NCBI GenBank assembly: GCA_028716745.1
Contig: JAQUPE010000007.1
Location: 1 to 34,775, forward strand
Source of the DNA: Minisyncoccota bacterium
GTDB lineage: Bacteria; Patescibacteriota; Minisyncoccia; UBA6257; 02-FULL-45-10c
DNA: 34,775 bases
Direction of reading: 5' to 3'
Below are positions 1 through 1,246 of the stretch, piece after piece; position 1 is the first letter of the stretch; every line of letters begins with the position of its first letter. Below the pieces are notes generated by a model. The model ran no database searches. It was given only the letters and a program-made list of their open reading frames with translations, and was not told the DNA's origin. The position numbers and the translations under genes were made by a program.

Positions 1-2
1 TG

Positions 3-134
3 TTTAAAAAGGAAATAGGCGCGGTTAGCGTGGAGTTTAAAAAGACGGATAAATTTGATTCGGAGCTAAGTTCGAATTTAGAGGGCCTGCCCGGCCAGGG
101 GGAAAGCGTCTGGGTAGGGGTTAAAAAGACGTAG
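3..134 (+). CDS. C-terminal fragment of an unidentified protein (truncated by window edge)
   Basis: Open frame from the window start: FKKEIGAVSVEFKKTDKFDSELSSNLEGLPGQGESVWVGVKKT, ending at TAG 132-134; no family recognised. Confidence 0.5.
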   Translation, partial: FKKEIGAVSVEFKKTDKFDSELSSNLEGLPGQGESVWVGVKKT

Positions 135-144
135 TCTTTGTTTG

Positions 145-173
145 TTGACATAATTTTTGTTTTGTGCTACTAT
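145..173 (+). promoter_or_regulatory. Sigma70-type promoter of the putative ncRNA
   Basis: TTGACA (145-150), 17-nt spacer, TACTAT (168-173); predicted start near 180. Confidence 0.8.
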
Positions 174-179
174 ATTAAA

Positions 180-456
180 GCTAAAATGGCTGTTCTTGAT
201 GAGCGGAGCGGTTCCGCGTTAAAGGACAAGCACATTAAAAAGAGAGGTGATGCTTTTGATAAGGTTGTGGTCAACCAGTTCGATGATAGGATGATCAACC
301 GGCCGCGGCGACGGGGCAGCCAAGCTGTATAGCCCCAAACGACATTCCTTCAAGGAGGAATCGGTGATAGGAACAGTATTCTAGCCGGCTCAAAAGCACT
401 TAAAAAAACGACGAAAAGTACCGTGTGCCCAGGATTCTGTCCCTGGGCCTTTTTTA
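180..456 (+). ncRNA. Putative structured non-coding RNA of unassigned family, about 275 nt
   Basis: Consensus promoter at the 5' end and intrinsic terminator at the 3' end. Helices: GCGGA 203-207/TCCGC 213-217; TGCTTTTGA 251-259/TCAAAAGCA 390-398; GGTTG 263-267/CAACC 272-276; CCGGC 299-303/GCCGG 384-388; GGGGC 313-317/GCCCC 332-336; ATTCCT 344-349/AGGAAT 356-361. The overlapping 64-aa ORF starts upstream of the -35 box. Confidence 0.7.
427..455 (+). terminator. Intrinsic terminator of the ncRNA unit
   Basis: GCCCAGG-attctgtc-CCTGGGC followed by CTTTTTT. Confidence 0.85.
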
Positions 457-475
457 TTTAAAAATCTTTGTGAAA

Positions 476-1246
476 TTAATATTTCAATAAATCCTCTTCT
501 TTTCTCATCTTCTTTACTTCATTTGGGTTCAAGTCGGCCATAATCATTCCTTCTTTATTATCTATTTTCTTTAAAATTTTATATTGGCGAGGACTGCATA
601 TTACGCTTACCCCGGTAGCTATTTTAGGTTTTGTATAAACATCGGCGACGACGATAAAAACTTCATTTTCAAATGATTTTATAGCTGGCGCGGCAAGGCT
701 GAATATTTTTTTATATCTTTTCAAATCCCTTTTCTCTTTTTTAGTTAGAACATCAAATGTCGGGCAAAAAACTATCCAGGCGCCTCCTTTTGCGAGCTTT
801 TTAATCAGTTCTGGGAAGTTAATATCATAACAAATAATAATTCCTATTTTTCCAAATTTTGTTTTTATCGGAATATCTTGCCTGCCGTGGGATACACCCT
901 CTTTTTTATCGCCTTTCCATAAATGGATTTTTTCGTATCTGTATTTAATTTCCCCTTTATCGTCAATTAAAAAAGCGCAATTCAAAAATTTGTTTTTTTC
1001 TTTGATGTATGTTCCAAAAATACAATGAATTTTTAACTTTTTACACATCCTTTGTATTTCTTTCAGGGAATCATCTTTTCTTTTAGTCTGGAAAGGATGT
1101 TCCAAAATACAATCCTCGGGGAAACAAGCTATATCAACTTTGTTTTTTGCCGCTTTTTCTAAAAAGAACAAAAGCCTTTCAAGGTTTTTTTTCGGGCTTA
1201 AAGTTACCCTCATTTGAATTGCCGCAACCTTCACTTTTTTAGCCAT
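476..1246 (-). CDS. Carbon-nitrogen hydrolase (nitrilase superfamily)
   Basis: Glu-Lys-Cys triad context: FPEDC, YEKIHLW, IIICYDINFPEL. Confidence 0.9.
   Translation of the reverse strand: MAKKVKVAAIQMRVTLSPKKNLERLLFFLEKAAKNKVDIACFPEDCILEHPFQTKRKDDSLKEIQRMCKKLKIHCIFGTYIKEKNKFLNCAFLIDDKGEIKYRYEKIHLWKGDKKEGVSHGRQDIPIKTKFGKIGIIICYDINFPELIKKLAKGGAWIVFCPTFDVLTKKEKRDLKRYKKIFSLAAPAIKSFENEVFIVVADVYTKPKIATGVSVICSPRQYKILKKIDNKEGMIMADLNPNEVKKMRKEEDLLKY

Follow-up and report, generated by a model that had tools for sequence, protein, structure and literature searches.

A candidate stand-alone structured RNA gene flanked by ileS and a convergent CN-hydrolase gene in one genus of Paceibacteria

The short intergenic region which follows ileS in the genome considered here appears, on a comparison of sequences, slightly more apt than not to hold a real, stand-alone and lineage-specific structured sRNA gene, confined to a single genus of Paceibacteria. 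The RNA is probably of an ordinary kind, albeit one which matches no known family, with a fast-evolving, genus-restricted and modular body. With its clear bounds and a homologue in synteny, the candidate would, if transcribed, provide a useful test case for the non-coding RNAs of Patescibacteria, a group for which a brief search of the literature found no paper on structured ncRNAs. Its narrow range keeps the general interest modest.

The locus and the predicted fold of the RNA

The window, by which is meant the whole stretch of 34,775 nucleotides that was analysed, is a complete contig (JAQUPE010000007.1, hereafter C7) of a genome of 661 kb with an estimated completeness of 98.3%. The RNA unit comes directly after the 3' end of ileS and is followed in turn by a convergent gene for a CN-hydrolase (Table 1). 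Among 17 genomes of the family, this gene is found at E<=1e-20 only in the two that also carry the RNA. The remainder of ileS is on contig C10, the final ~211 bases of which overlap with the start of the window. Within this overlap (window 1-211, C10 24081-24291) there are several mismatches, two of them in the last bases and inside the P1 hairpin of the RNA, which may be due to strain variation or to an error at the contig ends.

Table 1. Features of the locus, in window coordinates
Feature	Position	Strand	Details
ileS 3' end (isoleucyl-tRNA synthetase)	1..134	+	stop TAG 132-134; same reading frame runs on into contig C10
Promoter-like site TTGACA-N17-TACTAT	145..173	+	TG before -10; 10/12 consensus matches; TTGACA also in sister
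Predicted transcript, ~275 nt	180..455	+	from promoter and terminator
P1, 5' hairpin	185..236	+	185-200 with 218-236; inner stem 203-208/212-217
Linker TTAAAAAGnGAGGTGATGCTTTTG, most conserved	237..262	+	251-259 = 5' strand of long-range helix P2
P4 hairpin GGGGC/GCCCC	313..336	+	stems 313-317/332-336; pairing probability 0.85
P5, AAACGAC and ATTCCTT/GAGGAAT hairpin	337..363	+	stem 344-350/355-361; probability 0.85
P6 / module tail GTGATAGGAACAGTATTCTAG	364..384	+	stem 368-372/379-383; two copies in sister RNA
P2 3' strand	390..398	+	pairs 251-259; probability 0.96 (window)
Intrinsic terminator GCCCAGG-N8-CCTGGGC and T-run	427..455	+	7-bp GC-rich stem 427-448; same stem and AGGA in sister
CN-hydrolase gene (PF00795), convergent	476..1246	-	of 17 family genomes, E<=1e-20 in only the two with the RNA

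The near-consensus promoter and the strong intrinsic terminator on which a sequence-only reading of this stretch had based its claim of a transcription unit are both present as described. Some five promoter-like and two terminator-like sites are expected by chance in any 2-kb stretch, such that single matches of this kind prove little alone; the pair is raised above chance by its recurrence in the sister species, in corresponding positions. There, TTGACA is found at L111 12505 with a -10 element of the form TG-N-TAnnnT in the same place, although this -10 (TAACGT) is weak and was missed by the promoter scan, and the stem of the terminator (L111 13007-13032) is kept and is longer than in the window. 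The same reading had held the unit to be free-standing and not the leader of a riboswitch. In this regard, its position, promoter, P1 and terminator are kept in two species and the downstream gene lies on the opposite strand, all of which agree with the claim; it is tempered by the restriction to one genus (two genomes) and by the weakness of the covariation, a weakness which follows from there being only two species to compare.

The strongest element of the RNA is the hairpin P1, which did not appear in the earlier list of helices and is well supported. Relative to shuffled sequences its fold has a z-score of -4.0 in the window RNA and -3.6 in the sister. In the upper stem all four of the changed pairs are still paired in the sister (p about 0.01 against random substitutions), and the lower stem re-forms there one pair shorter, the covariation between the two species consisting of one-sided changes and one indel in P1. 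A hammerhead-like motif, UUGAUGAG, seen by eye at 196-203, is not kept in the sister and was set aside.

Beyond P1, the conserved strand GAGGTGATGCTTTTG, common to both species, is predicted to close a branched domain. The long-range helix which had been proposed here, P2, is indeed thermodynamically likely (Table 1). Its 5' strand is invariant, and in the sister this strand has another 3' partner, immediately ahead of the terminator, with which it pairs at a probability of 0.7-0.9. Set against shuffled 3' regions, P2 stands at 3.6% in the sister and at 17% in the window, the latter value falling short of significance, such that modelling of the fold is no more than suggestive of a helix conserved by re-made pairing. 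Within the domain, the two hairpins that had been claimed are recovered as P4 and P5, and together with P6 they make up a module of which there is one copy in the window RNA and two in that of the sister. P4 is found in all three copies (with five pairs in sister copy 1 and as AGGGCA/TGCCCT in copy 2), P5 keeps all of its pairs across species and sits inside a 29-nt block (331-359) that is identical in the sister, and P6 loses one end pair. The remaining helix of the sequence-only reading, 299-303/384-388, did not hold up, being missing from the minimum free energy fold and having four of its five pairs broken in the sister. Taken as a whole, the window RNA folds only slightly better than shuffles (z-score -1.7 to -2.2), and without the terminator its stability does not differ significantly from theirs (-0.9); the sister RNA folds far better than its shuffles (-4.1).

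A single homologue and its divergence

The sole homologue lies on contig JAQURY010000011.1 of the sister species, the only other genome examined for the genus, where the order ileS, RNA and CN-hydrolase is the same. No other significant match was returned by BLAST against 100 relatives. A two-sequence, full-length covariance model (R1) applied to 245 genomes of the order found no homologue beyond the sister, its weak matches L039 and L040 being judged on inspection to be chance (L039 reads as gatA-like coding sequence), and a model of the module (R2) found no further copies in the genome itself or in a class sample of 387 genomes. A scan with 20-mers of the GTDB r220 genome contigs returned only the sister contig; 20-mer scans of IMG/VR and blastn against phages and plasmids gave no credible match. 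Moreover, direct reading of the sequence that follows ileS in six further family genomes with loci in the right orientation (L044, L045, L046, L048, L052 and L056) showed no similar unit; for minus-strand loci of the family, absence is judged from BLAST and the models. The collection of homologues from related Patescibacteria, proposed earlier as a check, yields one syntenic case in the sister, with none in the wider samples of the order and class.

With respect to known families, a search of Rfam with window positions 60-560 gave no match, either at the gathering score or at E<=10, and the sister locus gave three weak matches only, all far below threshold. This was one of the checks which the sequence-only reading had proposed, and its statement that no signatures of tmRNA, RNase P, SRP or 6S RNA could be recognised agrees with the outcome.

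The two RNAs share a common layout of TTGACA promoter, P1, GAGGTGATGCTTTTG strand and terminator. The sister RNA is longer, at ~490 nt, and the extra length includes its second copy of the P4-P5-P6 module. In its 5' part, the module of the window RNA has 29 nt that do not differ from sister copy 1; its last 22 nt match copy 2 at 20 positions and copy 1 at 18, and the bases which follow it align to those which follow copy 2. This mixed similarity fits either a recombination by which the window lineage lost one module, or a gain in the sister, as we infer from the alignment. The sister RNA also has extra GC-rich hairpins (L111 12731-12773 and 12895-12973, for example GATGACGACGTCGTC) without counterpart in the window RNA.

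The aligned core of the RNA is ~71-74% identical between the species, with fully conserved blocks of 15-29 nt, as against 81-82% for the flanking genes. The RNA diverges faster than both the tmRNA (86%) and the RNase P RNA (78%) which the two genomes carry, and also faster than many of their plain intergenic stretches. Two other intergenic regions of the source genome (G000), C5:44000-44391 and C11:9976-10225, can be aligned with the sister genome over 209-243 nt at 83-85% identity; neither has a match in Rfam, and they are possibly further ncRNAs or small genes that were missed.

Other readings of the locus

That the region might be nothing more than an ordinary spacer, consisting of the 3' untranslated region of ileS with its terminator and some chance hairpins, and with no function at the level of RNA, is unlikely, if far from negligible. 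The fast divergence, the length difference of ~200 nt between the species and the modest folding energy of the window RNA all accord with such a spacer, as does the fact that many plain intergenic stretches are equally similar between both genomes. It would not be expected, however, to keep a separate promoter-like site right after ileS in both species, to have a GC content of 49% over the predicted transcript where the intergenic median is 36%, to enclose an invariant 29-nt block, or to change in P1 in ways which keep the pairing. A short protein gene, or the decaying remains of one, is a less probable reading still. An ATG at 186 begins a 48-codon frame (186-332), within an open frame (138-332) which lies just behind the promoter, a few changes in short blocks look synonymous, and in a genome that does not use Shine-Dalgarno (SD) sequences a nearly leaderless mRNA would be plausible. 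Against this, the ATG is gone in the sister, where a 1-nt deletion breaks the frame, and the changes are spread over all codon positions; moreover, searches of Pfam, NCBIfam and PHROG gave no match, and across 244 genomes of the order the peptide matches only the sister locus, with an internal stop. The earlier statement that there is no plausible protein here is upheld by this lack of a family match and of a conserved frame.

The module also invites a reading as a string of micro-ORFs with strong SD sequences (for example AAGGAGG-N5-GTG ATA GGA ACA GTA TTC TAG), by which the RNA would trap ribosomes or encode leader peptides. In all three copies the SD sequence, the N5 spacing, the start (GTG or ATG), six codons and the TAG are kept, and the RNA is enriched in 7-mers with complementarity to the canonical 16S tail, by which it ranks among the top 0.25% and 0.07% of genome windows. 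In this genome, however, the 16S rRNA ends in GGATCATTTTATT instead of GGATCACCTCC (G000 contig C6 ~28165). The anti-SD sequence CCTCC is missing in 14 of the 14 family genomes examined, namely this one and 13 others (loci L116-L129), the tails being GGATCA-TTTTATT or GGATCA/GGATTA-ATTAAA, and there is no SD peak upstream of genes in this genome. The GGAGG motifs are therefore not ordinary ribosome sites, and the micro-ORF reading, for which the opposite strand of the downstream gene is a further difficulty, was dropped as very improbable on account of the missing anti-SD. The enrichment itself finds no ordinary explanation and may be coincidence. A survey places the loss of the anti-SD mainly in Bacteroidetes, Tenericutes and Proteobacteria (PMC6107228), and no report of it was found for the present group. 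At the lowest end of probability is a highly divergent form of one of the universal RNAs (tmRNA, RNase P, SRP or 6S), amongst which 6S is the one that keeps some likelihood. Rfam reports neither an SRP nor a 6S RNA anywhere in the genome (for SRP RNA, RF00169, none at E<=10), which leaves room for such a form, yet genuine genes for tmRNA (C10:17543-17861) and RNase P RNA (C2; L068 11256-11611) are found elsewhere, there is no long hairpin like that of 6S RNA, and other genera of the family do not have the RNA. An SRP RNA would, in addition, have no protein partner, since an SRP54-domain protein (PF00448; Ffh or FtsY) was found neither in G000, by a profile which matches in 14 of 14 control genomes, nor in G001 by a motif check, and SRP has been reported to be absent in Parcubacteria (PMC4508563).

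Possible function and relation to known RNAs

If the region is indeed a stand-alone structured RNA gene, transcription would begin at a promoter of its own, placed directly behind ileS, and finish at a terminator of its own. The latter is turned towards the convergent CN-hydrolase gene, and read-through from ileS would be halted there as well. The transcript would fold into P1, then a multi-branched domain closed by P2 and built from the P4-P5-P6 module, and then the terminator hairpin.

The leading guess as to mechanism, though less likely than not, is a trans-acting regulatory sRNA, in which P1 and the terminator would protect the ends of the RNA and the conserved purine-rich stretches (237-250 and the loops of P5 and P6) would contact a target RNA or protein. 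When three conserved segments were scanned for duplexes with 443 orthologous gene starts, no target common to the two genomes was convincing. Scores for segments S1 and S2 lay within those of shuffled controls; segment S3, from the 5' hairpin, reached -31 upstream of rplV in the one genome as in the other, with controls extending to -23. This candidate was rejected, since the site in the window genome falls within the preceding gene, in coding sequence that is GC-rich, and S3 is self-complementary. A more speculative and distinctly improbable idea is that of a new modular class of structured RNA in Paceibacteria, in which P4-P5-P6 would be gained or lost as a unit inside a scaffold closed by P2, perhaps as the core of an RNA-protein particle, and in which the stretches complementary to the canonical 16S tail, a tail that the cell's own ribosomes do not have, could even act on foreign ribosomes.

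Amongst known systems, 6S RNA (RF00013) is comparable in size range and in being stand-alone, but differs in that the present RNA has no Rfam match to it and no single long hairpin with a central bubble. A likeness to CsrB and RsmZ, which sequester proteins, lies in the GGA motifs, of which there are several, in part within the loops of hairpins, and whose copy number differs between species; repeated protein-binding sites would be conceivable only by analogy. These RNAs, however, differ from the present one in that no CsrA gene (PF02599) was detected in its genome, by a profile which matches only 7 of 14 control genomes, and a CsrB-like assignment was dropped for this reason. Judged by sequence, the unit has what marks a stand-alone sRNA, that is to say its own promoter and terminator and no conserved ORF. 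Compared with typical base-pairing sRNAs it is longer and more branched, and no target was found. It resembles the orphan intergenic sRNAs in being stand-alone, with a promoter of the sigma-70 type, a 5' hairpin, an intrinsic terminator, a narrow range and fast evolution, and differs from them in the duplication of a module in the sister species.
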